A stretch of DNA of 38,325 bases from Candidatus Aminicenantota bacterium. Lineage in GTDB: Bacteria; Acidobacteriota; Aminicenantia; Aminicenantales; UBA4085. Within the stretch, counting starts at the first letter, position 1. Each line of letters starts with the position of its first letter. The notes under the pieces were generated by a model. The model did not search any database. It was not told where the DNA came from and saw only the letters and a list, made by a program, of their open reading frames with translations. Below are positions 8,116 to 31,268 of the stretch, in pieces. The stretch is from contig JAPKZG010000095.1 of the NCBI GenBank assembly GCA_026393895.1, positions 1-38,325 on the forward strand, in the 5' to 3' direction. A program made the translations under genes and the position numbers.

Positions 8116-8262
8116 CCTAAGACAAGTCATCGCGAAAGGCTTCCTTGCCCTGACTCCCAAAGGTCGTGTAGGACGGGGAAGCCCCGGAGGGGGAGCAGGG
8201 CAAGCCGTGCCATCGAAGATGCGCGGCCGTTGCCCGTTGCCCTCGCGCCAAGGGCGGGGAGG
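8116..8262 (+). repeat. 147-bp dispersed repeat, copy A (inverted relative to copy B)
   Basis: Aligned by eye to the reverse complement of 20912-21058, this stretch matches over 147 bp without gaps and with 11 mismatches (about 92%). It starts CCTAAGACAAGTC and ends AGGGCGGGGAGG. It contains no coding sequence. The absence of indels suggests a recent or actively homogenised copy. Confidence 0.85.
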
Positions 8263-13045: not shown

Positions 13046-13653
13046 GCAAACCGAAAAATCCGGGAACGGAAGGATGGGTTTCCTCCATCGTCACCGTCCC
13101 TAACGTCCTCAGCGCCTTCCGCATCCTTCTGGTTCCCCTGTTCGTCTGGGCCCTTCTGGAGCGGCAGACCATCGAACCCCTCGTCATTTTCTTTATCGCC
13201 GGGATCTCGGACCTGTTCGACGGATTCATCGCCCGCCATCTGCATCAACGGAGCAAACTGGGCGCGATCCTGGACCCGGCCGGCGACAAGCTCCTCATGG
13301 CCGCGTCCTATATCCTCCTGACCCTTCCCCAGGTCGTCGGCCCCAACCGGATTCCGCTCGGACTGACGCTCATCGTCTTCGCCCGCGACCTGATGATCGT
13401 CGGGGGCGTTCTTTGGGCCTACCTGACGTTCGGGATTACGCCCGTGTTGCCGACGATCATCGGAAAACTGACGACGGCGTTCCAGGTCGGGACCGTTTTT
13501 CTGGTTCTCCTGACGAACCATTTGGGGAAAAAAGCCGGGTGGATGGTCGCGATTTACGGGATCACGGCCGCGCTCACGCTGGCCTCATGGATTCTTTACT
13601 ACCTGCGCGGCCTCCGCATTCTCCGGGAGCGCCGCTCTTCCAAACCGGTCTGA
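13042..13653 (+). CDS. pgsA: CDP-alcohol phosphatidyltransferase (PgsA-like)
   Basis: This 203-aa membrane enzyme has the exact CDP-alcohol phosphotransferase signature D57-x2-D60-G61-x2-A64-R65-x8-G74-x3-D78-x3-D82. Four to five transmembrane segments follow. Glycerol-3-phosphate is the likeliest acceptor, making phosphatidylglycerol-phosphate, as judged by similarity to PgsA (NVLSAFRILLVPLF at the N-terminus). Relatives that use other alcohols, such as cardiolipin synthase, share the motif. ATGA overlap with the TPR/SLH gene shows translational coupling. It is the last gene of this operon and ends 7 bp from a convergent gene, with no terminator visible between them. Confidence 0.88.
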   Translation: MSKPKNPGTEGWVSSIVTVPNVLSAFRILLVPLFVWALLERQTIEPLVIFFIAGISDLFDGFIARHLHQRSKLGAILDPAGDKLLMAASYILLTLPQVVGPNRIPLGLTLIVFARDLMIVGGVLWAYLTFGITPVLPTIIGKLTTAFQVGTVFLVLLTNHLGKKAGWMVAIYGITAALTLASWILYYLRGLRILRERRSSKPV

Positions 13654-13660
13654 CCGGCCG

Positions 13661-15139
13661 TCAGCCCATGGAGCGGTCGATAAAACCGCGCCGGAGCGTC
13701 ATCCAGATGATTTTCAGGTCCAGGGCGAAGGTCCAGTTCTGGATATAATAGAAGTCGTGTTCGAGCCGCTTCTCGATCGACGTCCCCTGCCGGAGGCCGT
13801 GGACCTGGGCCCACCCCGTCAACCCGGATTTCATCTTGTGACGGAGCATGTATTTCGGAATGTTGTCGGTGAATTCCTTGACGAATTCCGGCCGTTCCGG
13901 ACGCGGGCCGACCAGACTCATGTCTCCCCGGACAATGTTCACGAGTTGGGGCAATTCGTCGAGGCTGAATCTCCGCAGCAGCCGGCCGATTTTCGTGATC
14001 CGCGGATCGTCGGGCACGCACATGACCGGTCCGGTCGTTTTTTCGGCGTTCGTGACCATCGTCCGGAACTTATGAATGTTGAACCGTTTGCCGTCCAAGC
14101 CGAACCGTTCCTGGTGGTAGAAAACCGGCCCCCTGGATGTCGCCTTGATGATGATCGCCACGACGAGCAGGAGCGGAGAAAGGACCAACAGGGCGAGCCC
14201 CGACACGATGAAGTCGAACAGCCGTTTGAAAACACGCTTGGCGCCGCGGAGCGGGACTTCGTCGACCGAGATCACGGGAAACCCGTCCAAGTCCTGGACG
14301 TTGGCTTTCAAGGTCAGGAGCTGGAAAAGGTCCGGGATGAGGCGGACGCTGACCGGGTATTTGTTGACGACCTGGAGGGCTTCCAGGATTTCCGGGTAGT
14401 TTTTCAGCTCGAGGGCGACATAGACCTCCTGAATGCTCTGGGCCTCGATGGCCTTGCCGAGATCGGACACGGTTCCGATCACGGGAACGCCGCCGTCGAT
14501 CGGAACGTTTTTTCCGGCCGGCATGTGGTTGTCGAGAAAGCCCTTGACCACGAACCCGAGGTCTTTATACTGGAGCAACTTTTGGGCGACGGCCACGCCC
14601 ATTTCCCCCGCGCCGACGACCAGGACGTTTCGCAGGTTGAGGCCGCGGGCGAAGCGCCGTTTCATGAAAAAATAGATCTGGTTGCGGAAAAAGGAAATCG
14701 TGAGAATCACCCCGATGAAATAGACGACCAAAAAGAGGTGGGAAAGCTTCACGATTTTCATCCGGAACAGCGGCGCCGCACCTCCGGAGTAGGCGTTTAA
14801 ATATCCGGAAACGGCCATCACCACAAGAATCGTCAGGGCGGCGTTGACGGTGATGGAAAAGAAATCGTCGAATTTGGTCCGCCGGAGGCGGCTTTTATAA
14901 AAACCCTGAAGAAAGAAAATGCCGAGATGCACGGCCAGAAAAAGGGGCAGGATGACCAGATACGAGCTCCACGTCGGGGTTCCCTTGGCCGGGTCCACGG
15001 GGATGAAATACGAATGAAACCGGAAGGCGTAGGAATAAATGAACGTCGCCACGATGGCCAAGATATCGCTGGCCATGAAGAGGGCCGAAAGGCGAGCCTG
15101 GTATCTGCCGATCACTTTGAGTCCTTGAATTCCCGCCAT
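13661..15139 (-). CDS. Polyprenyl-phosphate sugar-1-phosphate transferase (WcaJ/WbaP type), initiating exopolysaccharide synthesis
   Basis: The 492-aa protein joins an N-terminal membrane part (four hydrophobic segments in residues 15-150), a Rossmann-like CoA-binding/NAD-like domain (NVLVVGAGEMGVAVAQKLL, about 166-184), and a C-terminal bacterial sugar-transferase domain from about residue 300. Catalytic-domain hallmarks are KRLFDF near its start, FYHQERFGLDGKRFNIHKFRTM, SLDELPQLVNIVRGDMSLVGPRPERP, and SGLTGWAQVHGLRG-like GLRQGTS. Such enzymes put the first sugar phosphate (glucose, galactose or similar) on undecaprenyl phosphate. It is the last gene of the minus-strand glycosyltransferase operon. 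Its start lies 28 bp inside the upstream gene; an internal ATG at 15076 is an alternative. Confidence 0.92.
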   Translation of the reverse strand: MAGIQGLKVIGRYQARLSALFMASDILAIVATFIYSYAFRFHSYFIPVDPAKGTPTWSSYLVILPLFLAVHLGIFFLQGFYKSRLRRTKFDDFFSITVNAALTILVVMAVSGYLNAYSGGAAPLFRMKIVKLSHLFLVVYFIGVILTISFFRNQIYFFMKRRFARGLNLRNVLVVGAGEMGVAVAQKLLQYKDLGFVVKGFLDNHMPAGKNVPIDGGVPVIGTVSDLGKAIEAQSIQEVYVALELKNYPEILEALQVVNKYPVSVRLIPDLFQLLTLKANVQDLDGFPVISVDEVPLRGAKRVFKRLFDFIVSGLALLVLSPLLLVVAIIIKATSRGPVFYHQERFGLDGKRFNIHKFRTMVTNAEKTTGPVMCVPDDPRITKIGRLLRRFSLDELPQLVNIVRGDMSLVGPRPERPEFVKEFTDNIPKYMLRHKMKSGLTGWAQVHGLRQGTSIEKRLEHDFYYIQNWTFALDLKIIWMTLRRGFIDRSMG

Positions 15140-16230
15140 AAGGCGGCGAGTCGGGTCTCCATCTTTGTCCGGAAAACGTCCCGGGAAAACGCCAGAGCCT
15201 GGGCGCGAAGAGAGGCCTTATTAAAAGTCAACCCACGGCATTTGTCAAGGACGGCGGCGAGGCCGGTGGGCGTCGATTCCTGGAAATAAAGGCCTGTTTC
15301 GCCGGGCCGGACCGTTTCCAGCACCCCTCCCCGCCCCAGGGCGACGACGGGAGTTCCGCACGCCTGGGCTTCGACGGCTCCTATCCCGAAATCCTCCTCC
15401 CCCGGCATGAGGAGGGCGATGGCCTCCTGGAAAAGACGGCGGAGTTCGGCCCCCTCCACGGATCCTAAAAATTCGACCGAAGGGCCGGCCGTCGCTCGAA
15501 GGGCCCGCATCTCCGGGCCGTCTCCGACGACCTTGAGCGGATATCCCCTGAGATTGCAGGCCGCGACGGCCAAATCGATCCGCTTGTAGGGAACGAGCGC
15601 CGTCACAACCAGGAAATATTTTCGCTCGGGCATGGCGGCGGGGGGAACGAAAAACTCGGTATCGACCGGCGGGTGGATGACTTCGGCCGGCCGGCGGTAG
15701 TATTTTTCGATCCGGCCGGCGACGGCCCGGGAATTGGCTATGAACCGGTCCACGCGGGCCGAGGAGGCCACGTCCCAATTCCTCAAGCGATGGATTACAG
15801 GAGGAACGATATATTTGGCCGGGAATCCCAGCCTTCCGGGGCCGAAATAGGCGAAATACTGATTCCAGGCGTATCGAACGGGGGAATGAATATAGGAGAC
15901 GTGCAGCGCCTCGGGTTTCGGGATGATTCCCTTGGCCGTGCAATGAGAACTCGAAACGACCAGGTCGAAATCCTGAAGGTCGAACAATTCCGCGGCCAGG
16001 GGAAAAAGCGGGAGGTAATAGCGATAACGCTTGCGGAGGAACGGCATCCGTTGCAGAAAACTCGTCCGGATGGTCCGCTTCTCGAGGTCGGGGATCTGGC
16101 TCCCGGGAAAATGGAAGAGCGTGTAAATCGGCGCCTCCGGGAAGATTTCCGCCAGGACCTCGAGGACCTTTTCCCCGCCGCGGCGGCCGGTGAGCCAGTC
16201 ATGGACAAGGGCGACCCGCGCATTTTTCAT
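15112..16230 (-). CDS. GT4-family glycosyltransferase (WbaZ-like)
   Basis: This 372-aa GT-B enzyme opens with ARVALVHDWLTGRRGGEKVLEVL, typical of a GT4 subgroup that acts in O-antigen and capsule assembly. The C-terminal half carries the nucleotide-sugar site: KYFLVVTALVPYKRIDLAV, KVVGDGPE, FLGSVEGAELRRLF, and the EX7E motif (EDFGIGAVE, within PGEEDFGIGAVEAQACG). Donor and acceptor cannot be read from sequence; mannosyltransferases are the best-known relatives. It begins 8 bp after the stop of the preceding gene and overlaps the sugar-1-phosphate transferase gene by 28 bp. A cytoplasmic or membrane-associated step in building the repeat unit is likely. Confidence 0.88.
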   Translation of the reverse strand: MKNARVALVHDWLTGRRGGEKVLEVLAEIFPEAPIYTLFHFPGSQIPDLEKRTIRTSFLQRMPFLRKRYRYYLPLFPLAAELFDLQDFDLVVSSSHCTAKGIIPKPEALHVSYIHSPVRYAWNQYFAYFGPGRLGFPAKYIVPPVIHRLRNWDVASSARVDRFIANSRAVAGRIEKYYRRPAEVIHPPVDTEFFVPPAAMPERKYFLVVTALVPYKRIDLAVAACNLRGYPLKVVGDGPEMRALRATAGPSVEFLGSVEGAELRRLFQEAIALLMPGEEDFGIGAVEAQACGTPVVALGRGGVLETVRPGETGLYFQESTPTGLAAVLDKCRGLTFNKASLRAQALAFSRDVFRTKMETRLAALWREFKDSK

Positions 16231-16238
16231 CGGGGAGA

Positions 16239-17381
16239 TTATAGCCCCTTCGCGGCCGCGAGGTCCAGATAAAGACGTTCGGTTTCGGCGACCATGCGTT
16301 TCAGGTCAAACGCCGGCGGAATCTCGTGGCGGGCCTTCTCTCCGAGCCGGCGGGCCAGGGCGGCATCTTCCAAAAGGCGCCGGACGGCGCCGGCCAAGGC
16401 GGCCGGGTCGGCCGGAGGGACAAGTAGCCCGGTTTCCCCGTCGCGGATGATTTCGCGGGATCCGTCGATATCCGTGGCGATGATGGGCTTGCCGAGCCCG
16501 GCGGCTTCGATCAAGACCAGGGGAAGGCCTTCCCAGAGCGAAGGAAGGACGAAAATATCAAAGGCGGACAGCAGATCGATCGCGTCCGGCCGCTCCCCGG
16601 CCAAGATGAAGTGGTCGGCCAACCCGAGCCGATCGATTTTGGCCCGGAGGCGTTTTTCAAGAGGCCCGCTGCCGACGACGACAAACAGCGCCCCCGAATT
16701 CCGCCGGAGGATCTCCGGGGACGCCTTGATGAAATATTCGACGCCCTTCTGCCGGTGCAGACGGGCGACCGTCCCGATCACGGGAGCGCGGAGCTTCAGC
16801 CGCGGACAGAGTTCGCCGATTCTCCGGCCGCGGTCTGAGTCCGGGGACGGATCGACGACCGCGACGCCGTTGCGGACGAGGCGCAGGCGGTCGTCCGGGG
16901 CCAGGCGGTATTTCCGAGCCTGGGCGAGGTCCGCCTCGGAGACGCATACGACCGCCGACGTCGCCCGGCTCAGCGACCGTTCCAGGCCGATGAAGATCTT
17001 CCGAAGGATGGGATTGCGGTAATGAAGATAATGGATGCCGTGAATGGTGTGGACGACGACCGGGGTCCGGGCGCGGCGGGCGGCCCGCCGCCCGAACAGG
17101 CCGGCGATTCCGCCGTGGGTATGAAGGATGTCGATTTTTTCGGAGGCCAGCAGCCGGGCGAGGTCCCGGCCGAGGCCGGTTGACGGTTTTTTCTTGAATT
17201 CCGCCGGATGAAAGGCCAGCCCGAGTTTGCGGACTTCGTCCTCAAGAGGGCCGCCGCTTTTGGCGCAGACCGAAACCTCGAAACGGGTCCGGTCCAGATG
17301 TCGGGCCAACGTCAGAAGAACGGCCTGACCTCCGCCGAGCGACGGCTTGTCGATCATTTCCAGAACCTTCAGCCGGTTCAC
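16239..17381 (-). CDS. GT4-family glycosyltransferase
   Basis: The 380-aa protein has the two Rossmann-like domains of GT-B enzymes. The N-terminal part contains LGGGQAVLLTLARHLDRTRF and the DILHTHGGIAGLFGRRAAR segment (acceptor side). The C-terminal part contains VIGTVARLHRQKGVEYFI, LFVVVGSGPLEKRLR, the EX7E motif EGLPLVLIE in SLWEGLPLVLIEAAGLGKPIIATDIDGSREII, and GETGLLVPP. It overlaps the preceding GT2 gene by 4 bp (ATGA), which shows tight coupling. The specific sugar is not assignable. Confidence 0.88.
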   Translation of the reverse strand: MNRLKVLEMIDKPSLGGGQAVLLTLARHLDRTRFEVSVCAKSGGPLEDEVRKLGLAFHPAEFKKKPSTGLGRDLARLLASEKIDILHTHGGIAGLFGRRAARRARTPVVVHTIHGIHYLHYRNPILRKIFIGLERSLSRATSAVVCVSEADLAQARKYRLAPDDRLRLVRNGVAVVDPSPDSDRGRRIGELCPRLKLRAPVIGTVARLHRQKGVEYFIKASPEILRRNSGALFVVVGSGPLEKRLRAKIDRLGLADHFILAGERPDAIDLLSAFDIFVLPSLWEGLPLVLIEAAGLGKPIIATDIDGSREIIRDGETGLLVPPADPAALAGAVRRLLEDAALARRLGEKARHEIPPAFDLKRMVAETERLYLDLAAAKGL

Positions 17382-18268
17382 CGGTTCCCCTTGCCGGATT
17401 TCAACAATTCACGGTAAGCGGTCCACCGGGATCGTCCCTCTTCGCCCCGGAACCGGCCGATGAGTTTTTGAAAGCCGAGATTCCCTCGAAGGTAGGCGCG
17501 CAGGAGTCGGAGCGATCCGCGGGAGGCATGCTTTCGGTAGAAGGCCCATTGACTTTTCCGGTATTCGAAGCGGCTTGCGGCCGGGCGTATTCCGGTCGTC
17601 GCGCTGCCTTCGTGAAAAACCCGGGCGGCCGGGACGAAGAGAAGACGTCCGCCGGCCGAGCGCATCCGGACGCAGAGATCGATGTCCTCGAAATAGAGGA
17701 AAAACCCCTCATCGAATCCGCCGGTCGCTTCGAACGCCGAGCGCCGGCAAAGAAAGCAGGCCGCGCTCAGCCAGCCCGCTTCACGGGCGGCCGGATGCCG
17801 GCGAAGCCTCCTCTTGTAAAAGGGATTCCAAATAGTTTTTTGAACGAGCTGGCCCAAGAAATCGACCCGGCTGCCGAAAGAAACCTGGACCTTCCCCTCG
17901 CTCGGGAAAAGAAGCGGCCCGGCCGCGACCGCCCCGGCGTCCGGGCGGACAGCCGCAAGCAAGGCCGACACGGCCCCGGGTTGAAGGATCGTATCGGTGT
18001 TCAAAAAAAGCAGGAATTCCCCCGACGATTCCCGGACGGCCCGGTTGTTCGCCGCGCCGAAACCGAGGTTTCCCGCGTTCCGGAGGATCCGAACGGATGG
18101 GAAGGCGGTTGCGACGTCCTCGATTCCGCCGTCGGTTGAGGCGTTGTCGACCAGGATCACTTCAAGCGGAATGTCCGGGGGCGTCGCCAGGACGGAATCC
18201 AGGCACGGCGTCAGGTTCATGCGGTCGTCGTAATAAACCAGGATCACGGAAAGGAGGGGGGCGTTCAT
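17378..18268 (-). CDS. GT2-family glycosyltransferase (rhamnosyltransferase-like)
   Basis: This 296-aa inverting GT-A enzyme shows VSVILVYY-like LLSVILVYYDDRMNLTPCLDSVL, EVILVDNASTDGG, RNAGNLGFGAANNRAV, LFLNTDT (the DxD position, here N-T-D), and GWLSAACFLCRRSAFEATGGFDEGFFLYFEDIDLCVRMR. That order is typical of dTDP-rhamnosyltransferase-like GT2 proteins, but the sugar is not proven. The 4-bp overlaps at both ends (with 16239-17381 and 18265-19506) place it in the middle of the polysaccharide operon. No membrane segments are obvious. Confidence 0.88.
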   Translation of the reverse strand: MNAPLLSVILVYYDDRMNLTPCLDSVLATPPDIPLEVILVDNASTDGGIEDVATAFPSVRILRNAGNLGFGAANNRAVRESSGEFLLFLNTDTILQPGAVSALLAAVRPDAGAVAAGPLLFPSEGKVQVSFGSRVDFLGQLVQKTIWNPFYKRRLRRHPAAREAGWLSAACFLCRRSAFEATGGFDEGFFLYFEDIDLCVRMRSAGGRLLFVPAARVFHEGSATTGIRPAASRFEYRKSQWAFYRKHASRGSLRLLRAYLRGNLGFQKLIGRFRGEEGRSRWTAYRELLKSGKGNR

Positions 18269-19506
18269 CCGCGGCCGCTGTCCCCTTCCCGGTCGCGGAG
18301 GGAGGCGAAGAGAGGGCCCTCCCGGCCTGCATCCGACGACGGAGGGACAAGAAGCGTCCGGCCACAGACGTCCAACAAAACCCGCTCCACACCCTTGACC
18401 TGGCGTTCGATCGAAAATTTTTCCCGGACCGTCCGGAAACCGTTATCGACGATCGCCGGCCAGCGTTCGGGATGATCAAAAATCTCGGCCAGCGCCTCGG
18501 AAAGAACGTCGGCGTCCCGGGAATCCGCCAAAAATCCATTTTCCCCGTGCCGGACGATTTCGGTCAATCCTCCGGCCCGGATCGCTAGAACGGGAACACC
18601 AGCGGCCATCGCTTCCAGCGCCGCCCGGCCGAACGAATCGACGACCGAGGCGACGACGACAACGGACAAGGTCTGGAGGACTTCCACAAGGTCGGAGCGA
18701 AAACCGGCAAAATAGACGCGGCGGGAGAGGCGGTTCAGGCGGACAAGCCGCCGCAGGTCCTGTTCGTACCGGGAATCGGCGGAAGCTCCGATGAAGATGA
18801 GTTTCAAGTCCGGATACCGGTCCGCAAGCCGGGCGACGGCCTGGAGAACTTCCTTCTGGCCCTTGCCCGGATACAGTTTCCCGATGACCCCGATCGCTCG
18901 AGCCCCGTCCTCCAGCCCGAACTCGGCCTGGACGATTTCGCGGAGTTCCGTATCGGCCGGGCGGATGTCCAGGCCGTTATAGACGAGAACGATTTTTTCC
19001 GAATCGGGGAAAGCCGCCCGTGTCCCCTCGGAATTGACGATCACCCGGGCTGAGTGATCGAGAATGAACTTGGTCAACGCCCGGGCCCCGCGAAAGTAAT
19101 GGAGAAAAGCATGGTCGCCGTCGAGGATTTCATGAATCGACCAGACATGAGGAAGGCCCAGGCGGCGGGCGGCCAGGGCGCCGCCGAACGTCGCGGCCGA
19201 ATTGGAAAAGACGACCTCGACGCCCCGGTCGCGGGCGATGCGGGCGATCCGGCGCACGGCCCGCCGATTCAACACCCAGGCCGCGGGCTGGCGCCAAACT
19301 CTCCTCTTTTCCGTCACCCACCATTTCATCGGGACGACCTCGATAGGAACATTCGCTTTTTCAGCCGCCGGGCCGAGCGGGCCGGGCCGGGGGATGATGA
19401 GCGCCGGAGCGAACATCTTCCGATCGAGGCGGCGAAGAGTTCCGAGAAGCCAGAGTTCGGCGCCGTTGAGTTCGGCCGAATGGGAGACAAACAAAATTGA
19501 AATCAT
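18265..19506 (-). CDS. GT4-family glycosyltransferase with a non-canonical EX7E motif
   Basis: The 413-aa GT-B protein contains ISILFVSHSAELNGAELWLLGTLRRL at the start, a 'WSIHEILDG' acceptor-side segment near residue 125, and the C-terminal donor domain: RAIGVIGKLYPGKGQKEVLQAVARL, LIFIGASADSRYEQDLRRLV, VYFAGFRSDL, and GENGFLADSRDADVL. The usual EX7E pair is D-x7-E here (DSFGRAALE, in SVVDSFGRAALEAMAAGVPVLAIRAGG). An Asp at the first position is found in a minority of GT4 enzymes and may change donor handling. It overlaps its neighbours by 4 bp on both sides. Confidence 0.86.
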   Translation of the reverse strand: MISILFVSHSAELNGAELWLLGTLRRLDRKMFAPALIIPRPGPLGPAAEKANVPIEVVPMKWWVTEKRRVWRQPAAWVLNRRAVRRIARIARDRGVEVVFSNSAATFGGALAARRLGLPHVWSIHEILDGDHAFLHYFRGARALTKFILDHSARVIVNSEGTRAAFPDSEKIVLVYNGLDIRPADTELREIVQAEFGLEDGARAIGVIGKLYPGKGQKEVLQAVARLADRYPDLKLIFIGASADSRYEQDLRRLVRLNRLSRRVYFAGFRSDLVEVLQTLSVVVVASVVDSFGRAALEAMAAGVPVLAIRAGGLTEIVRHGENGFLADSRDADVLSEALAEIFDHPERWPAIVDNGFRTVREKFSIERQVKGVERVLLDVCGRTLLVPPSSDAGREGPLFASLRDREGDSGRG

Positions 19507-20639
19507 GCGCGTCCCACCGTTTCTTGATAGAAGCCGAGAGTGGTTTCGGCGGTCCGCCGCCAGCGGAAAAGTCCCGCCTGTCGGCCGCCCCGGATACGCA
19601 AGGTGTCTCGCAACGGGCCGTCTTCCATCAACCGGAGAACCGTTTGGGCGATGTCCTCCGGATCTTCGGGTTTGAAGTAAAGGGCGGCCTCGCCTCCGAT
19701 TTCCGGAAGGGCCGAAACTCCGGAAACGGCGGCCGGCAGACCGCAGGCCATCGCTTCGAGCAAGGGAAGGCCGAACCCTTCCGCGTACGACGGAAAAACC
19801 AGCGCGGATGCGGCCCGGTAAAGGGCCCGGATTTCAACGTCCGAAAGATACCCCGCCCGGCGCACCCAGGATTGAAGCCCTCGTTTGTCGATCGCCTGTC
19901 CGATCCTCTCCCGGTCGTCGCCGGACCGGCCGGCTAAAACCAGCGGGATGCGCCCGCGTTTTTCATGAATCAGGGCCAGCGCTTCGATCAAGGCCGGAAC
20001 GTTTTTGCGCGGCTCGAGCGCCCCGACAAACAATAAAAAGTCCCCGGGCAGGTCAAGCCGGCGCCGGATTTCTCCGGTCTCCTCCGGCGTCGAGGGTTCC
20101 TCAAAGATGCGATTCAACCCGAGATAGGTCACCTTGATTTTTCCGGCGTCGAGGCCGAACCGGTCCTGGATCGCCCGCGCACTGTATTCCGAAATCGTGA
20201 CGATGCCGTCGGCCGAGCGGAGGGAGTTTTCGGTCTTTCGGAGGAACCGGTCCCGGGCTTCCCGGTCGGCCTTCGCGGGCTCTTCCATGAAGAACAAATC
20301 GCAGACCGTGACGATCGCTTTCCCGGACGCGGGTAGACACAGCGGCGTGGGCGAATGGCTCAAGTCAAGCCGGCCGCCAAACACCCGGTCGAGCGTCGGG
20401 CGGCCGAACATGTCCCAGGCCGCGTTGACCGCCCGGACCGGCCAGCGCTTGTCGACAAATTTTAATTTCGCGAACGGAGGGACCTTGGCGCGCGGGAAAC
20501 GGTCTTTAAAGGACGCCGAAAAAAGACAATATTCGTTGTCCCGGTCGAGCGCGGCCAGTTCGAACAGGAGGTTTTTGAAGTAGACGCCCACGCCGGTTTC
20601 CTGCTTAAGGAAGGGACGAATGTCGAAGCCGATGCGCAT
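19503..20639 (-). CDS. GT4-family glycosyltransferase, first gene of the polysaccharide operon
   Basis: The 378-aa protein starts MRIGFDIRPFLKQETGVGVYFKNLL, characteristic of the GT4 group containing mannosyltransferase-like enzymes of surface-polysaccharide loci. The donor domain shows GDFLLFVGALEPRKNVPALIEAL, LVLAGRSGDDRERI, GYLSDVEIRALYRAASALVFPS, EX7E as EGFGLPLLE, and AALYFKPEDPEDIA. It is the promoter-proximal gene of six on the minus strand (20639 to 13661). A strong promoter puts its -10 only 8 nt before this ATG, and no Shine-Dalgarno is present, so translation is probably leaderless. The downstream start overlaps its stop by 4 bp. Confidence 0.9.
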   Translation of the reverse strand: MRIGFDIRPFLKQETGVGVYFKNLLFELAALDRDNEYCLFSASFKDRFPRAKVPPFAKLKFVDKRWPVRAVNAAWDMFGRPTLDRVFGGRLDLSHSPTPLCLPASGKAIVTVCDLFFMEEPAKADREARDRFLRKTENSLRSADGIVTISEYSARAIQDRFGLDAGKIKVTYLGLNRIFEEPSTPEETGEIRRRLDLPGDFLLFVGALEPRKNVPALIEALALIHEKRGRIPLVLAGRSGDDRERIGQAIDKRGLQSWVRRAGYLSDVEIRALYRAASALVFPSYAEGFGLPLLEAMACGLPAAVSGVSALPEIGGEAALYFKPEDPEDIAQTVLRLMEDGPLRDTLRIRGGRQAGLFRWRRTAETTLGFYQETVGRA

Positions 20640-20647
20640 TTTTTATA

Positions 20648-20676
20648 AATGTATGACATCCGTACGAATGTGTCAA
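20648..20676 (-). promoter_or_regulatory. Promoter for the polysaccharide operon, predicting a leaderless mRNA
   Basis: Read on the minus strand: TTGACA (20676-20671, perfect), a 17-nt spacer and TACATT (20653-20648, 4/6), then 8 nt (TATAAAAA) and the ATG at 20639. Just upstream is AGTGTCCGTCC (20689-20679), the same sequence type that precedes the DUF4388 promoter at the other repeat block. Confidence 0.65.
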
Positions 20677-20714
20677 TTGGACGGACACTATTGAGGGGGG
20701 AAACCCTGACACTA

Positions 20715-20788
20715 TTGGAGAGAAACCCTTTTCGAAGCTTTGCTCGTCCTACGCGAGCTTTGGGAGCCAGGGCTGGGTTTCTCTCCAA
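20715..20788. repeat. 74-bp element with 14-bp terminal inverted repeats
   Basis: TTGGAGAGAAACCC (20715-20728) and GGGTTTCTCTCCAA (20775-20788) are perfect inverted repeats. They enclose a diverged copy of the GCCCTGACTCCCAAAG...GTAGGAC module, in reverse orientation (20745-20772). The arms are the same sequence as the hairpin at 8275-8304. This is the inner part of the right repeat block. Confidence 0.75.
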
Positions 20789-20839
20789 CGGTCCGGCGGA
20801 ATGTCCCGCCGTCCCTGCCTCTCATCCAATGTAGCCTTA

Positions 20840-21075
20840 TCCCATGACTTATCTAAGGCAGTACACATTGTGATTTGCGCGCGGTATTCCCTATTATTGT
20901 TCCCCCTAAGGCCTCCCCGCCCTTGGCGTGAGGGCAACGGGCAACGGCCGCGCATCTTCAAACGCGCGGCTCGCCCTGCTCCCTCTCCGGTGCTTCCCCG
21001 TCCTACACGACCTTTGGGAGTCAGGGCAAGGAAGCCTTACGCGGTGACTTATCTTAGGCGGGACACACTTCGATT
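20840..21075. repeat. Right composite repeat block (gene-free)
   Basis: The 524-bp space between the polysaccharide operon and the M20 gene holds no credible gene. Besides the two elements listed separately, TGACTTATCTAAGGCAGTAC with ACATTGTGATT (from 20844) recurs as TGACTTATCTTAGGCGGGAC with ACACTTCGATT (from 21044), a diverged direct repeat about 200 bp apart that flanks the 147-bp unit. GCGGGACAC and ATGTCCCGC also occur as scattered ends. Confidence 0.65.
20912..21058 (-). repeat. 147-bp dispersed repeat, copy B (inverted relative to copy A)
   Basis: The reverse complement of this stretch matches 8116-8262 over 147 bp with 11 mismatches and no gaps. Four of the mismatches cluster in one 5-bp spot (RC of about 20950-20960). 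The two copies face each other across 12.6 kb. Confidence 0.85.
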
Positions 21076-21108
21076 CACGGGAAAATGATGGGGACTCCCC
21101 CCTCTTCC

Positions 21109-21137
21109 TTGCGTCCGGGAGCGCGGAATGCTATAAA
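21109..21137 (+). promoter_or_regulatory. Promoter for the M20 peptidase gene
   Basis: TATAAA (21132-21137) lies 17 nt downstream of TTGCGT (21109-21114, 3/6). A leader of about 20 nt with AAAGGAG (21151-21157) then precedes the ATG at 21164. This gene therefore has conventional Shine-Dalgarno initiation, unlike its leaderless neighbours. Confidence 0.5.
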
Positions 21138-21163
21138 GGATTTTCGCCGCAAAGGAGACCCTG

Positions 21164-22204
21164 ATGTCCTTCGCTAAAATCGCCGAACGTCTCGATCTTT
21201 ACCGGGACGAGATGATCGACCTCCAAATCAAGCTCACCTCCATCCCGGCCGTTTCCCCGTCCTCCGGCGGCGAAGGCGAAGCCCGGAAGGCGGAATTTCT
21301 CCTCAAATACTTGAGGTCCTCCGGGATAACGGATATCGAGGTCATCAAAGCGCCGGACCTCGAGGCCCCCGCCGGTTACCACCCCAATATCCTGGCCCGT
21401 TACCGCGGCCGGAGCTCGGTCCGAACGATCTGGATCATGACCCATATGGACATTGTCCCGCCAGGGGAGTTGTCCCTCTGGAAGGGCGATCCGTACAAGC
21501 CCTGGGTCGAATCGGGAAAAATCTACGGACGCGGCGTCGAAGACAACCAGCAGGACCTGATCGCGTCCGTTTTCGCCGTCAAAGCCTTCCAAACGCTCGG
21601 CCTCACGCCCGCTTACGACGTCGGCCTGGCCATCGTCGCCGACGAAGAAACGGGCAGCACGAAGGGGATCCCCCACATCCTGAAAAAATCGACCGCCTTC
21701 CGCAAGGGCGACCTGATCATCGTTCCCGACGCGGGCAACGCGGACGGAACGGAGATCGAAGTTGCCGAAAAAAGCATCCTGTGGCTGAAATTGAAAATCC
21801 TGGGCAAACAAACCCACGGATCGACGCCCGAGCGTGGGATCAACGCCTTCAAAGCCGCCTCTTATCTCGCCGTCAAGCTCGACCGGCTCTACCGCGCTTT
21901 CCCCGAAAATAATCCTCTCTTCGAACCGCCGATCTCCACGTTCGAGCCGACGAAGAAGGAAGCCAACGTCCCGAACATCAACACGATCCCGGGCGAGGAC
22001 GTGTTCTATATGGATTGCCGGATTCTCCCCCACTACCGGCTCGAGGACGTCGACGCCAAGATCCGGGCGGCGGTGCGCGCCGTCGAAAAGAAATTCGGCG
22101 TGACCATCATCACCGAAGACATGCAAAGGGCCAAGGCCGCCCCCCCCCCCCCCCCCATGGTCGGCGACGCCAAGGTCTTCGCCCACATCATGATGCAGGA
22201 CTGA
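21164..22204 (+). CDS. M20-family metallopeptidase/deacylase (ArgE/DapE-like) with an apparent C-terminal internal deletion
   Basis: The 346-aa product is a two-zinc M20 amidohydrolase. Visible residues are H94 and D96 (THMDIVPP), bridging D127 (GRGVEDNQQ), catalytic E161-E162 (ADEETGS) and D189 (VPDAGNADG), plus the lid domain (QTHGSTPERGINAFKAAS). Family members run to about 400-410 aa and carry a GGGT-rich segment and a final zinc-ligand His about 15-25 residues before a GDAKVFAH-like end. Here RAKAAPPPPP is joined directly to MVGDAKVFAHIMMQD at a 17-C run, so about 65 residues, including that His, are missing in frame. As written it should be inactive. It is either a real deletion or an assembly collapse. 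Neighbouring amino-acid transporters suggest peptide or acyl-amino-acid breakdown. Confidence 0.85.
   Translation: MSFAKIAERLDLYRDEMIDLQIKLTSIPAVSPSSGGEGEARKAEFLLKYLRSSGITDIEVIKAPDLEAPAGYHPNILARYRGRSSVRTIWIMTHMDIVPPGELSLWKGDPYKPWVESGKIYGRGVEDNQQDLIASVFAVKAFQTLGLTPAYDVGLAIVADEETGSTKGIPHILKKSTAFRKGDLIIVPDAGNADGTEIEVAEKSILWLKLKILGKQTHGSTPERGINAFKAASYLAVKLDRLYRAFPENNPLFEPPISTFEPTKKEANVPNINTIPGEDVFYMDCRILPHYRLEDVDAKIRAAVRAVEKKFGVTIITEDMQRAKAAPPPPPMVGDAKVFAHIMMQD
22140..22156 (+). repeat. 17-C homopolymer inside the M20 gene
   Basis: Seventeen consecutive C bases encode most of a Pro run and mark the exact point where M20 homology jumps to the C-terminal end. No comparable homopolymer exists elsewhere in the window. 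It is either a slippage-prone tract or a sequencing/assembly artefact. Confidence 0.9.
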
Positions 22205-22237
22205 GCCGGGTCCGGCCCGGGCGAACGCGAATTATTT

Positions 22238-22657
22238 TTATATCCGACGGGATGATTCAGGATTTTTCGTTCCGGCCCGCGGTTTTTCTCCATCCGTCCA
22301 TTTCCTCCCGCCCACGGCGCCGAGCGGACTCAGAATCGGAATGATCAAGAACAGGTGCCACCAATGGAGCCCGCTGTTTTTAAAGCCGCCGTATGAACTG
22401 ATCATCCAGGCTGCCAAGGTAAAAAAAACGAGGTAGAGCGGAAGCATGAGTGTCCAAAACGGCTTCGCCGGATGTCGCCAGGGCGAGAAGACAAAGACGA
22501 AGAAAACGGCAATCAAAAATAAGATCAGGCCCAGAACACCTTCGACCGTCTTCCTTTGAAAGAGATAAATCACCGCGAGGACAACGACCCAGAGAAACCC
22601 CCACAACCAGCTGCCGATCCATCCGGCTTTTTCGCCGGTCCTTTTTCCGTCGGCCAT
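22238..22657 (-). CDS. Unrecognised membrane protein with four predicted TM helices
   Basis: The 139-aa protein has hydrophobic segments at about 12-32, 37-57, 67-87 and 98-115, a short Lys/Glu-rich N-terminus and a hydrophilic, charged 24-residue tail. I do not recognise a family. The start at 22657 is supported by GGAAGGAG a few bases upstream and by a promoter further up. It is a single-gene unit, convergent with the M20 gene (33 bp apart) and divergent from the APC permease. The function is unknown. The base composition matches its neighbours. Confidence 0.7.
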   Translation of the reverse strand: MADGKRTGEKAGWIGSWLWGFLWVVVLAVIYLFQRKTVEGVLGLILFLIAVFFVFVFSPWRHPAKPFWTLMLPLYLVFFTLAAWMISSYGGFKNSGLHWWHLFLIIPILSPLGAVGGRKWTDGEKPRAGTKNPESSRRI

Positions 22658-22714
22658 GATCGACTGCTCCTTCCCCGTCTAACGTCGTCTGAATCGCGTC
22701 GCGCGAGTTTTAAA

Positions 22715-22742
22715 GATATATCCGGATTCGGCGCTCTGTCAA
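22715..22742 (-). promoter_or_regulatory. Promoter for the unknown membrane-protein gene
   Basis: On the minus strand, TTGACA (22742-22737, perfect) and TATATC (22720-22715, 4/6) are 16 nt apart. A leader of about 50 nt containing GGAAGGAG precedes the ATG at 22657. Confidence 0.5.
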
Positions 22743-22783
22743 CCGGTTCCGGCGCCCCGGAACCGGCGGCGGCGCGGCCTGAA

Positions 22784-22813
22784 TTGACAGGCCGGCAGGA
22801 AATCCATTCTAAT
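22784..22813 (+). promoter_or_regulatory. Promoter for the APC permease-gltS unit, predicting a leaderless mRNA
   Basis: TTGACA (22784-22789, perfect), an 18-nt spacer and TCTAAT (22808-22813, 5/6) stand 6 nt before the ATG at 22820. There is no Shine-Dalgarno. It is divergent from the promoter at 22715-22742; the two -35 boxes are 41 bp apart. Confidence 0.65.
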
Positions 22814-22819
22814 ACGCGC

Positions 22820-24190
22820 ATGCCAACGCACGACCGAAACCCTTCCTCGGCCGCGACACCATCTAAAGAGCTTCCCCGGGTGTTGGGCGTTTTCAGCATT
22901 GTTGGGATCGTCGTCGGGGCCATGATCGGCTCGGGCATCTTCATCAATCCACCCAACGTAGCCAAGGTCGTCGGTACGCCGGAGCTCATCATGGCCGTCT
23001 GGATCGTCGGCGGCATCTTGACTCTCTTCGGCGCGTTGTCACTGGCCGAACTTGGCGCGGCCCAGTCCCAGGCCGGGGGGATTTACGTCTATCTCCGCGA
23101 GGCCTACGGGCCGATGATCGCCTTTCTCTTCGGCTGGTCGCTTTTTATCGTCATTGAATCGGGAACGGTGGCCTCCCTGGCCGTGGGATTCTCGACAAAG
23201 TATCTCCCCTATTTCATCGACCTTACGCCCCTCCAGGCCAAGGCGGTTTCGATCGTCCTGATTCTGATTCTGGCCGCGGTGAACATCACCGGCGTACGGC
23301 GGGGCGCAGGCCTGATGAACTTCCTGACCAGCATCAAGTTCGTCGCCCTGATCGGCATGTGCGTCCTCGTCTTCCTTTTCGCCAAGGGGAGCCCGGGAAA
23401 TTTTCTCTCAAAGTCCCCGGGGTCCGAACCGGCGGGCGGCCTGATCGGCAATTTCGGCGTCGCCTTGGTCGCCGCTCTCTGGGCCTACAAAGGATGGGAA
23501 AGCAGTTCTTACAGCGCCGGAGAAATCCAAAATCCGCAAAAAAAGCTTCCCCTGGGAATGCTCGTCGGCACCGCCTCCGTGGTTTTTCTTTATGCCGTCG
23601 CCAACCTCGCTTATCTCTACGTCTTCCCGGCGTCGGAAATGGCCGAATCCAAGCACATCGCCGCCGACGTCATGCAGGCCGCGGTCGGTCCGGCAGGCGC
23701 CTCGATCATCGCCTTCATCATCCTGATGTCCATCACCGGAACGGCCAACGGCCACCTGTTGACGGCGCCCCGGGCCTTCTACGCCATGGCCAAGGACGGG
23801 TTCTTTTTCAAGCCCATGGCCAGGGTCCATCCCCACTTTCTCACCCCCCACGTCTCGATCATCGTTATGGCCGTCTGGGGGTCCGTCCTCTGCACCATTG
23901 GGTCGTTTGAACAGCTCTTCTCCTTCGCCATGTTCGGGTACTGGATCTTCATGGGCCTGGCGGCCGCCGGGGTGATCGTGATGCGGAAGACAAAGCCCAA
24001 CCTGCCTCGGCCGTACAAGGCCTGGGGCTATCCGGTCACGTCCGGCCTGTTCATCCTGGCCATGGCCTTTTTGACCGTTAATTCGCTGATCCAGGCCTTC
24101 TGGAATTCGTTCGCCGGCCTGGGCCTTATCACGATCGGAATCCCGGTCTATTTTTACTGGAAATCCCGGCGAAAAAAAACCGGCGACTGA
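22820..24190 (+). CDS. APC-superfamily amino-acid permease
   Basis: The 456-aa protein has about 12 hydrophobic segments. The first carries VVGAMIGSGIF, the unwound TM1 substrate and ion site of APC transporters; TM2 has GGILTLFGALSLAELGA. The loop GWESSSYSAGEIQNPQKKLPLG is also diagnostic. This group (LAT/AdiC-like) moves amino acids by symport or exchange; the specific substrate is unknown. The ATG at 22820 is preferred because the promoter's -10 ends 6 nt before it; the frame extends upstream to 22556, but that part is low-complexity and overlaps the divergent gene. gltS follows after 25 bp and is probably cotranscribed, forming an amino-acid uptake unit. Confidence 0.92.
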   Translation: MPTHDRNPSSAATPSKELPRVLGVFSIVGIVVGAMIGSGIFINPPNVAKVVGTPELIMAVWIVGGILTLFGALSLAELGAAQSQAGGIYVYLREAYGPMIAFLFGWSLFIVIESGTVASLAVGFSTKYLPYFIDLTPLQAKAVSIVLILILAAVNITGVRRGAGLMNFLTSIKFVALIGMCVLVFLFAKGSPGNFLSKSPGSEPAGGLIGNFGVALVAALWAYKGWESSSYSAGEIQNPQKKLPLGMLVGTASVVFLYAVANLAYLYVFPASEMAESKHIAADVMQAAVGPAGASIIAFIILMSITGTANGHLLTAPRAFYAMAKDGFFFKPMARVHPHFLTPHVSIIVMAVWGSVLCTIGSFEQLFSFAMFGYWIFMGLAAAGVIVMRKTKPNLPRPYKAWGYPVTSGLFILAMAFLTVNSLIQAFWNSFAGLGLITIGIPVYFYWKSRRKKTGD

Positions 24191-24215
24191 CCGGACGGCC
24201 GAAAGGAAAATCGGG

Positions 24216-25448
24216 ATGCTGAACCTCGACCTCATCCAAACGGTCGCCTTCGCCGGGATCGTTCTTTTCATCGGTTATGCGCTCTGCCGATGGATCCGGC
24301 CGCTTTCCCGGTATAACATCCCGGCGCCGGTCGTGGGCGGTTTGCTGGTCGCCTTCGCGGCCCTGATCGCCCATCGCTATGGGACGACTTTGTTTTCGTT
24401 CGACACCACGCTCCGCGATCCCTTGATGATCGCCTTTTTCACTACGATCGGGTTCGGGGCCAGCTTTTCCCTTCTCAAGGTCGGCGGGCCGCAGGTCGTC
24501 CTTTTCTTCGTGATCGCCGCCGTAGCCGCCGTTTTTCAGAATATCCTCGGAGCGGGGATCGCCGTCCTCTTCGGACTCCATCCGCTGTTCGGCGTCCTCA
24601 GCGGTTCCGTGACCCTGACCGGAGGTCCGGCGACGGGGCTGGCCTTCGCCCCGTTGTTCGAGCAGGCCGGCGTCAACGGCGCGGCGACGATCGCCATCGC
24701 CGCGGCCATGTTCGGGATCATCTCCGGAGGGTTGATGGGTGGGCCGGTAGCGACGCGTCTGATCGAGCGGAACAGATTGAGGAAGGCCCACGCTCACAAG
24801 GGAGAAACGCCTGTCGTCATCGCCGAAGAGGTCGTGGAGGACAAACTGTCCGAAGCCAAAACGACCGCCCCGGGCGGAGAAGACCAGGAGGCTTTCGTTC
24901 TTCTTAAAAGCCTGGTCGTTCTCCTTGTCGCCATGTGGATCGGGTCCTGGGTGAGCAAGGGGTTCGCCGCATTGGGGATCACCCTCCCCGCCTATATCGG
25001 GGCCATGTTCGTCGCCGCGATCATCCGGAATGTCGACGATCTCACCCATTGGATCGGCTTGTCCCAGCGCACGCTCGACGACCTCGGCCACGTTGCCCTC
25101 TCTCTATTCCTGGTCATCGCCCTCATGACACTCAGACTCTGGGAGCTGGCCGGCTTGATGCTTCCCCTCTTCATCGTGCTTGTCGGCCAGGTGATCCTGA
25201 TCACGATCTTCTGCCTCGGACCGGTGTTCAAGTATATGGGCAAGGACTACGAAGCTTCGGTCATGTCCGGCGGATTTTTCGGCTTCATGATGGGGACGAC
25301 GGCCAACGCCATGGCCAACATGAAGGTCCTCGTCGACAAATACGGCCGGGCGCCACGCGCCTTCCTGGTCGTCCCCATGGTCGGGGCGTTTTTCATCGAT
25401 TTCGCGAACGCCCTCATCATTACGGTCTTCATCAACATCATGAAATAA
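24216..25448 (+). CDS. gltS: Sodium/glutamate symporter
   Basis: GltS imports glutamate with Na+. The 410-aa length and two-halves topology fit: about 10 hydrophobic segments, with a charged cytoplasmic loop (about residues 190-230: RLIERNRLRKAHAHKGE and a Glu-rich stretch) between the halves. The two reentrant-loop motifs are present: GSVTLTGGPATG in the first half and GFMMGTTANAMANM in the second, corresponding to the family's GGxxG elements. A Shine-Dalgarno-like AAAGGAAA precedes the start at 24216. It probably shares the permease promoter. It ends 65 bp before the convergent AGCS symporter gene. Confidence 0.93.
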   Translation: MLNLDLIQTVAFAGIVLFIGYALCRWIRPLSRYNIPAPVVGGLLVAFAALIAHRYGTTLFSFDTTLRDPLMIAFFTTIGFGASFSLLKVGGPQVVLFFVIAAVAAVFQNILGAGIAVLFGLHPLFGVLSGSVTLTGGPATGLAFAPLFEQAGVNGAATIAIAAAMFGIISGGLMGGPVATRLIERNRLRKAHAHKGETPVVIAEEVVEDKLSEAKTTAPGGEDQEAFVLLKSLVVLLVAMWIGSWVSKGFAALGITLPAYIGAMFVAAIIRNVDDLTHWIGLSQRTLDDLGHVALSLFLVIALMTLRLWELAGLMLPLFIVLVGQVILITIFCLGPVFKYMGKDYEASVMSGGFFGFMMGTTANAMANMKVLVDKYGRAPRAFLVVPMVGAFFIDFANALIITVFINIMK

Positions 25449-25464
25449 AGCGCGGAGAGAGAAT

Positions 25465-25507
25465 CCGGAAACTATTTCGCGACGGGCTCCAGGCGGCCTG
25501 TTTCCGG
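25465..25507. terminator. Possible bidirectional hairpin between gltS and the AGCS gene
   Basis: CCGGAAAC (25465-25472) pairs with GTTTCCGG (25500-25507) across a 27-nt loop, between two convergent genes. A short T-rich stretch lies nearby (25514-25520, inside the AGCS stop region). The loop is long and the T-run poor, so terminator function is only possible. Confidence 0.3.
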
Positions 25508-25513
25508 CCCGGG

Positions 25514-26980
25514 TTATTTTTGGGCGGCGTCCTCGGCCTCGTAACGGCGGCGGATCGCCGTCCAGATGCCGGCGTTTTTGATGCCCAATTTTTCCGGGTC
25601 GAAATACAAATGCTTAGCCTTCCGCTGGGCCTCGTAATCCTTCAACGTGGCCAAGCCGACCTTGGTCAGCAGGAGGATGGCGATGATGTTAAGCCAGGCC
25701 ATCAAACCCACGCCGATGTCGCCCATAACCCAGGCCAGGTTGGTCGAGCGGATCGCGCCGAAGAAGGTCATGCCCAGCAGGAACACCCGGGCCGCCTGGA
25801 TGGCCAGCGAGCTTTTCTTCTTGAACAGATATGCGACGTTGGATTCCGTGTAAAACGCATAGGCCATCAGGGTCGTGAAGGCGAAAAAGAAGAGGGCGAT
25901 GGCCACAAAATAGCCGCCGAATCCCTTGATCAGAGTGTCGATGCCCATCTGGGTCCAGACGGGGCTCGCTTCGACGCCGGGAATGTTGTTGACGATTTGT
26001 CCGCCCTTCCCGTCGGCGACGTTGTACATTCCGGTCAAAAGAATCATGAAGCCCGTGGCGCTGCAGACGAACAGGGTGTCCACGTAGACCGAAAACGCCT
26101 GGACCAGCCCCTGCTGGGCGGGATGCCGGACTTCGGCCGCGGCCGCGGCCTGGGGCCCCGTGCCCTGTCCGGCCTCGTTGGAGAAAATGCCCCGTTTGAC
26201 TCCCCAGACGATCGCCGACCCGACGATTCCTCCGAACATGGCGTTGGCCCCGAACGCGGAGCTGAAGATCATTCCCAAAACGGACGGCAGGCGCTTGATG
26301 TCGAGAATGATGATGATGATCGCCATGATCACGTAGCCGATGGCCATGAACGGAACCATGAGCTCGGCGGCCTTGCCGATGCGTTTGACTCCGCCGAAGA
26401 TGATCAGGGCCAGCAGGGCGCTGATGATGATTCCCGCAAGGGACGGGGTCAATTTCGGAAATACATTCTGAAAAGCGATGGTGATGCTGTTGGATTGGAT
26501 GCCCGGAAGCAGAATGCCGCAGGAGAGGATGGTGACGACGGCGAAGATGACGGCGTACCATTTTTGGCCCAGTCCTTTTTCGATGTAGTAGGACGGGCCG
26601 CCGCGGTAAACGCCCCCGATTTCTTCTTTCCAGACCTGGGCCAGGGCCGACTCGATATAGGCCGAACCCGCGCCTAGGAAGGCCAGCATCCACATCCAGA
26701 ACAACGCCCCGGGACCGCCGACGCTGATGGCCGTGGCCACGCCGGCGATATTGCCCGTCCCGATCCGGCCGCCCAGGGCCATGGCGAACCCCTGGAACGA
26801 CGAAACGCCCTTCTGGGACGAGGCGCCTTTCCAGAGCTGGCCGACCATGTCCTTGATCAACCGGACCTGGAGAAAGCGCGTCCGGATCGAGAAATAGATT
26901 CCCGCGCCGAGGCAAAGGACGACGAGGGGATAACTCCAGACGTATCCGTAAATCAGGTCCACCAGTTTCTGCAGGTTCAC
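25514..26980 (-). CDS. AGCS-family sodium:alanine/glycine symporter
   Basis: The 488-aa protein matches AGCS (AlsT/DagA) carriers: GAGIYFSIRTRFLQVR near the start, GVSSFQGFAMALGGRIGTGNIAGVATAISVGGPGALFWMW (about 59-98, the family signature), YRGGPSYYIEKGLG, and GIFSNEAGQGTGPQAAAAAEV. It has about 9-11 transmembrane segments. It imports alanine or glycine with Na+. The start is GTG at 26980, six nt after a strong CCTCCTCGG-complement Shine-Dalgarno (GAGGAGG). Its promoter at 27025-27053 leaves a leader of about 40 nt. Single-gene unit, convergent with gltS. A 32-bp piece of this gene occurs again at 29179-29210. Confidence 0.95.
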   Translation of the reverse strand: MNLQKLVDLIYGYVWSYPLVVLCLGAGIYFSIRTRFLQVRLIKDMVGQLWKGASSQKGVSSFQGFAMALGGRIGTGNIAGVATAISVGGPGALFWMWMLAFLGAGSAYIESALAQVWKEEIGGVYRGGPSYYIEKGLGQKWYAVIFAVVTILSCGILLPGIQSNSITIAFQNVFPKLTPSLAGIIISALLALIIFGGVKRIGKAAELMVPFMAIGYVIMAIIIIILDIKRLPSVLGMIFSSAFGANAMFGGIVGSAIVWGVKRGIFSNEAGQGTGPQAAAAAEVRHPAQQGLVQAFSVYVDTLFVCSATGFMILLTGMYNVADGKGGQIVNNIPGVEASPVWTQMGIDTLIKGFGGYFVAIALFFFAFTTLMAYAFYTESNVAYLFKKKSSLAIQAARVFLLGMTFFGAIRSTNLAWVMGDIGVGLMAWLNIIAILLLTKVGLATLKDYEAQRKAKHLYFDPEKLGIKNAGIWTAIRRRYEAEDAAQK

Positions 26981-29285: not shown

Positions 29286-31268
29286 ATGACAATCCGAAAA
29301 TTTTTCGCGCCGGCCGCGGCCGTCCTGATCCTGGGAGTTTTCCTCTTTCCGGCCTGCCGTCCGAAACCCGGGTCAAATCCCGTCGAATACCGATTCATCG
29401 ACGAGTTGACGACCGCGGGCGTCGTCGAGAGTCCCTTGAAACACCCGGAAACGGCCGGCCTCGGTCCACGGGCTTTCCCGGTCAATTCCTCCGTCATGAC
29501 CGAAACCGGAAGCGGCGAGGCCGCCTTCGGTTTGAAACGCAAACTGAACCTGGACCTGACGGCAACGGACATTCTCTTCGCCCCTTCCCGGAGCGAGTTC
29601 AAGTATCGGCTCCTCATCAAAACCGAGGGATTCCTGGATTTCGGGATCGGGATCATCCGGGACGCCCACACAGCCGCCCGATCCGCCGACCCTGAAAATC
29701 CGTCCGGCATCGTTAAATTCATGGTGATCCTCGAAACGGGCGGCCGCAAGAAGATCCTTTTCGAGCGTCTTCTCAAACAGCCGGAAGCCCGAAAGTACCG
29801 GACGATCAACCATGTCTGGCAACGGATTCCGCTGCCGGCGCGGCAGGGGGAGGCGACGCTGACGTTCATCACTTCCGGCGATTCCGGCCCCTTCGCTTAC
29901 TGGATGCATCCGGTCTTTTATGTTCCGGAAAAGACCCCCCTGAATGTTATCCTCATTTCCGTCGACACCCTCCGCGCCGATCACGTGGGAACCTACGGGT
30001 ACGACAGGCCGGTTACTCCCCGAATCGACGCCCTGGCCACCGACGGCGTCGTCTTCGAAAACGCCTATTCGACGGCGCCGTGGACGCTTCCCGCCCACGT
30101 CTCCATGCTCACCGGCTTGAACTGCGTCCGGCACCGCGTCTATACCGAAAATGACCGGATGGATCCCCGGACCACCACCCTGGCTGAAATCATGCGGGAG
30201 CGGGGATACGCGACCCGGGCGATCGTCGCCAGCGGTGGTTTTATCAGCGCGAGATTTGGATTCTCCAAGGGATTCGAAGAATACCGCATGGACACGGGCG
30301 ATCTCTCCAACGAGACCCAGGCCTCCAAAGCCGGCCAGGATGCCGTTCAATGGATCGAACAGAACACGGACCGATCGTTCTTTCTTTTCCTCCATACCTA
30401 CCAGGTCCATTCCCCTTATAAGAGTCCCGAACCGTATCGATCCATGTTCCTCCGGAAGGACGCCCGCTGGAAGAAATTCGACATCATCGGAGACCTCGGC
30501 GGCCGGGAGGGGATATTCACCCCCCTCAGCGAGTCCGAACGGGCCAACGTGATCGCTCTCTACGACGCCGGCATCCGCTACACGGACGAGACCCTCATCC
30601 AGCCCGTCGTGGACGCCCTCCGCCGGCATAAGCTCTACGACCGGACGATGATCATCGTGACCAGCGATCACGGGGAAGAATTTTACGACCACGGCGGCTG
30701 GAGTCACGCGCACACCGTTTACGACGAGCTCATCCGCGTCCCGCTCATCATCAAAATGCCAAGGTCGGAATTCCGGGGGCGGCGCTATTCCTCCATCGTC
30801 CGCCTGATCGACCTGATGCCCACGGTTCTCGATGTCGCCGGCATCCCGTTCAAGGAGCTGTCCCTCAACGGCGATAGTATTCGGCCCGTCCTAAGGGAAA
30901 AAGAGACGAGCGACCGCGTTTTCCTGGCCGAACTGGCCGAAAACATCCTCGATAATCAGATTCCGCGCCGCCTGGCCCTCAACGACGGGCGTAACAAAGT
31001 CATTTTGAACCAGCCCTTTTCCCAGGAGCAGATGAAATTCTTCATCGTCAAACCATCGCCGATCCCCCCCCTTGCACTCTACAACCTCACCCGGGATCCC
31101 GCGGAAAAAACGAATGTCATTGACCGGCCGGAAGACGCCGTTAAAGTCCGGGTCCTCGTCCAAAAAGCCCGGGAGACCGACCGGCTCATTCCAAAGAGAG
31201 AAGGTAAAAAATCCAAGATCGATAAAAGCCTGGAGGATCAGTTGCGGGCCTTGGGATACATCCGGTAA
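29286..31268 (+). CDS. Sulfatase/alkaline-phosphatase superfamily lipoprotein, copy 2
   Basis: The 660-aa paralogue is aligned end to end with copy 1 at roughly 80% identity by eye, and higher in the catalytic half. The signal peptide is clearer ([10 protein letters not shown], lipid-type Cys at about 23). All catalytic positions are kept: [19 protein letters not shown] (T267) and TSDHGEEF, again with Thr instead of formylglycine Cys/Ser. Differences cluster in the loop around residues 330-345 and the end of the catalytic domain, so substrate range may differ. A terminator follows at 31287-31308. Both copies are in frame and intact, with no sign of decay, so both are probably used. Confidence 0.86.

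Follow-up and report, generated by a model that had tools for sequence, protein, structure and literature searches.

An M20 family metallo-hydrolase gene in the window (the whole contig C16 of 38,325 bases, from a bin whose 106 contigs total 2,957,221 bases) lacks a conserved catalytic segment precisely at a run of 17 C, in a frame that stays open. This loss most likely reflects a mistake of assembly in a gene that is otherwise ordinary and conserved, and new biology is improbable. We consider it likely that the organism has a normal M20 hydrolase of full length (about 408 residues) and that the contig was falsely joined inside this gene.

The gene lies on the forward strand at 21164-22204, and its open but truncated frame encodes 346 residues. 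The protein matches PRK13983 (NF010589, an NCBIfam equivalog), with residues 4-330 aligned to model positions 3-331 of 409. It resembles this ArgE/DapE-like family up to model position 331 but leaves positions 332-409 unmatched and does not reach a whole-model match; the nearest relative covers positions 3-408 with 554.3 bits. The score of the window protein is 434.7 bits against a curated cut-off of 333 bits, which means, as far as this can be tested, that an automatic annotation would probably call the gene intact, as the initial annotation had claimed. The motifs HxD, GVEDNQQ and DEETGS, which we take to be the earlier metal-site motifs of M20 hydrolases, are all present in the window protein together with the dimerisation domain; residues 200-309 cover M20_dimer almost in full (model positions 1-104 of 107). 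The Peptidase_M20 domain is covered from model position 2 to 113 of 206, and from 2 to 205 in the relative. Scanning the window for Rfam families and tRNA genes returned no match.

The nearest relative belongs to the same genus, at about 82% identity, with collinearity over 13 kb; its protein has 408 residues (the loci L009 and L051 are one contig). Its sequence reads GCCG, 8 C, 195 nt and ATGGTCGGC; in the window GCCG is followed by 17 C (22140-22156) and then directly by ATGGTCGGC. The nine C by which the window exceeds the relative stand for the 195 nt (65 codons) expected here, a net change of -186 nt or -62 codons, in frame. At the protein level the 65 residues of the aligned relatives become three prolines, which bears out the earlier claim that about 65 residues are lost exactly at the 17-C run. 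The blastn comparison with L051 gave collinear blocks on either side of a break at window positions 22147/22156 and L051 positions 3484/3679. Within the gene, the stretch collinear with the relatives runs from 21164 to 22147, where the blastn block stops, and takes in the run's leading 8 C, which is the tract state in L051. The final 15 codons (MVGDAKVFAHIMMQD, Met included; 22157-22201) agree with the nearest relative in 43 of 45 nt, and 14 of the 15 residues match in the comparison with the relative. For these codons the initial annotation had given the right count but had quoted a string of only 14 residues.

Judged by these alignments, the join is local and connects the correct neighbours, because both of its sides are collinear with L051 and with G001:C150, a 13.4-kb contig collinear with window positions 13364 to 26671. 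A join of unrelated places is ruled out by the same collinearity. Within the collinear 13 kb, no other compared gene shows an internal length change of more than one residue; this comparison took only frame pairs with more than 60% identity and 150 bits, and the 139-codon frame at 22238-22657 beside the gene was not among them. The 14 gap residues of the permease frame are confined to its open leader, which precedes the conserved part. The rest of the M20 gene is under purifying constraint (dN 0.114, dS 0.613 by NG86 against L009). This constraint, together with the matching final residues, makes an old pseudogene unlikely in appearance. Inspection of the relative's sequence by eye showed no direct repeat at the ends of the break beyond one C, and a deletion by direct-repeat slippage was rejected on this ground.

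The site was compared with the best 80 of 199 loci (L051-L130), the window's own copy (L008) being left out. Among these 80 loci, 53 are recorded as Candidatus Aminicenantes by a hand count, and the nearest as Acidobacteria bacterium. Exactly 65 residues occupy the site in 76 of these best 80 loci. The segment is present in L092 too, but in a second, frameshifted frame, and in L078, L106 and L109 a contig edge interrupts the gene. The M20 ortholog of L092 is split by the frameshift after DETGSE, its remainder being intact in another frame; the contig of L109 stops within the same gene a few codons before the C tract. The short form occurs in none of the 80 loci, the best of the 199. The initial annotation had named close relatives with the same short form as the sign of a genuine variant; no such form was found among the loci examined. 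A set of 99 loci was composed of the 80 and 19 more (L009-L027), many of which are contigs already in the 80 (e.g. L009/L051). Duplicates included, the site holds exactly 65 residues in 95 of the 99 aligned loci, against three in the window. The segment was counted from the alignment, since a motif search, which gave 79 of 99, overlooked motif variants. The motif could be located in 81 of 99 loci (duplicates included); their C runs at the site range in length from 2 to 8, and the maximum of 8 occurs in the nearest relative and in L103. By a hand count the gene is present, whole or partial, at an identity of at least 57% in 53 of 58 relatives.

The lost 65 residues include GIGGGT and the TAHQPNE histidine, as had been predicted for the GGGT-rich segment and the final ligand histidine. 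Both are absent from the window protein and present in six aligned relatives and in the consensus of 95 rows. Across the 95 complete aligned rows the histidine and most of GIGGGT are conserved at a level of at least 95% and the remainder at a level of at least 80%. In a comparison with solved structures the TAHQPNE histidine aligns with the HQVDEY histidine of DapE chain 7uoi. We take it to be the last metal ligand, which in Haemophilus DapE is numbered His349; a literature search on DapE His349 found no paper. Judging from these motifs the protein, if made, should be inactive. At E values up to 10, a search of the bin for the lost segment gave the final 15 residues as its sole match, and the idea that the segment sits on another contig of the bin was rejected at this threshold.

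The suggestion that the assembler had bridged a hard GC region was not supported. In the nearest relative the lost segment has a GC content of 63.6%, compared with 60.1% for the window, and its folding is ordinary when compared with shuffled sequences (z values of -0.18 and -1.30 for the two strands). The GC content of the segment is 65.6 to 71.3% in six further close relatives. These values do not support a hard GC region or a hairpin in the lost part, and apart from the C tract we found nothing that marks the segment as hard.

The run itself is far outside the distribution of its own genome. The C/G runs of the window comprise 49 of length 5, 13 of length 6, two of length 7, one of length 8 and the one of length 17. 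The next longest run is 8 C at 31064-31071; no further stretch of at least 8 C or G exists in the window, in agreement with the earlier statement that it has no comparable homopolymer. On both strands of the bin there are 12 sites with at least nine C/G (nine of length 9, one of 10, one of 12 and one of 17); the search pattern required a non-C base before the run, and runs at the extreme edge of a contig would escape it. A plain search of the bin for 12 C gave the same two places as the pattern search. From at least nine (12 sites) to at least ten (three sites) the number falls fourfold per base; extrapolated from these few sites, a 17-base run would be expected about 0.0002 times in the bin. 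When up to three mismatches are allowed, 17 C matches the bin 34 times: nine of these matches belong to this site, three to the 12-C site and 22 to C-rich sequence with three mismatches, contig ends not having been compared one by one. The second-longest C run found, 12 C at G000:C31:16173-16184 (L044), is located in an open frame of 505 codons, close to its end. By eye, judged on the bin's sequence alone, the other bin runs in long frames are read through without visible loss.

Long C/G runs also occur in related assemblies. Ten genomes of a 59-genome set, our own included, have a C/G run of at least 14. Ten runs of this length were found in relatives; five of them come to within about 105 nt of the end of their contig, and some are degenerate, like read tails. 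Of the 297 genomes in a phylum set, 57 contain a run of at least 15; 27 such runs were fetched from further genomes, one from each, and for 14 of them a contig end is no more than about 220 nt away. A G-run followed by a C-run within 20 nt was found in 12 of the 297 genomes, the reverse order in six and both orders in four; the matches number 198 and 27, respectively, but they overlap and are not independent. The G-then-C order is the geometry expected from two facing G tails. Such adjacent pairs occur in L159, L163, L176 and other phylum genomes, in the middle of contigs or at their ends, and one of them bridges an N gap (L176). None of the 12 genomes with the G-then-C order shares the class of the window. 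The pairs in the phylum assemblies look like poly-G tails incorporated into assemblies. G is unlabelled on two-colour instruments, and two papers report poly-G stretches from these (PMC8002175, PMC12527978); the first states that the effect is not clearly visible in its plots. Literature searches on poly-G in metagenome assembly and on Aminicenantes with a homopolymer gave nothing relevant among the papers listed.

The false join could have come about as follows. The right side of a local gap may have carried a C tail, corresponding on the minus strand to a G tail as from two-colour dark cycles; alternatively, reads may have stuttered at the natural C tract. Assembly or gap closing would then have joined the tail to the tract, and the intervening sequence would have been dropped. 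The natural tract would have seeded the join, the 8 C of the relative being the likely landing place. A run of 17 bases is shorter than the usual k-mers, so the join would require a gap closer or an overlap step.

We favour the false join because the break falls on a tract that has 8 C in a relative of the same genus, because 17 C is far out of line with the other runs of the bin, and because the 65 residues are kept in nearly all of the 80 relatives and the short form in none. The constraint on the rest of the gene, the lack of a repeat at the ends, the stable length of the other compared collinear genes and the poly-G/C tails in related assemblies all argue in the same direction. Like the poly-G tails of two-colour Illumina reads, the run in the window is a G homopolymer (C on the opposite strand) that coincides with missing sequence; contigs of some relatives end in such runs. 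Here, however, the run is in the middle of a contig, clean and single, and adjoins the counterpart of the relative's C8 tract. Several observations count against the false join. The bin itself (G000) has no G-run/C-run pair, and no second clear tail was seen in it. Among 17 mid-contig runs elsewhere (five of the ten relative sites and 12 of the 13 mid-contig loci in L156-L182, L176 with its N gap being excluded), inspection by eye of each sequence alone revealed no clear second case of a gene cut in this way. The reading frame is kept, which has a chance of 1/3 for a random join. The shortness of the run relative to the usual k-mers, the absence of the window's class among the 12 genomes with the G-then-C order and the unclear poly-G effect in the plots of PMC8002175 also weigh against it.

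The initial annotation had left the choice between a gene killed by slippage and deletion and a false join, and both of these survive the analysis. A real, recent deletion in the population is the less likely of the two, and we regard it as possible but rather improbable. Under this explanation a deletion next to the C tract removed 195 nt, slippage lengthened the tract to 17 C, and the gene would be dead in an open frame because GIGGGT and the last metal-ligand histidine are absent. Long C tracts do slip in living cells, and the preserved frame, the correct and local flanks and the lack of a second poly-C/G artefact seen in the bin are all consistent with such an event. On the other hand, it requires two events, the deletion and a gain of about nine C, and the relative's sequence has no direct repeat at the two ends. 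The wide presence of the gene in the relatives and the lack of a short form in the 80 best loci also speak against it, and, given the constraint on the remaining gene, only a very recent loss would fit.

It is far less probable that the short form is a real functional variant, in which the protein, with its dimerisation domain and a large part of its catalytic domain, works without the last ligand, or in which the C tract acts as a phase-variable switch. The open frame and the nearly complete M20_dimer domain fit this idea. The incomplete Peptidase_M20 domain, the strong conservation of the histidine and GIGGGT in the 95 rows and the lack of the short form in any examined relative do not. Homopolymeric contingency loci are phase-variable poly-C tracts, and the window resembles them in having a long C tract within an open frame. 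However, the conserved segment is absent from the window and the lost residues are encoded in no frame of the tract, so that switching cannot give a complete enzyme at any tract length; moreover, the longest tract in the 81 loci is 8. Equally improbable is a non-catalytic M20 homolog of one Aminicenantes-like lineage that is made and keeps its dimerisation domain, the last catalytic segment having been lost at a C tract that is still slipping.

A 27-nt element, TCCTACRCGASCTTTGGGAGYCAGGGC, occurs in the window at 8147-8173, 20747-20773 and 21001-21027. The latter two copies precede the M20 gene in a stretch that is not alignable to the nearest relative. The element is dispersed in the bin, with 25 matches at up to three mismatches; the pattern read backwards gave none.

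The gene illustrates that an open frame can clear a curated family cut-off without its catalytic end, and annotation based on families would miss such a loss. A screen for C/G runs far beyond a genome's own distribution at gaps in family matches could reveal similar places in other assemblies.
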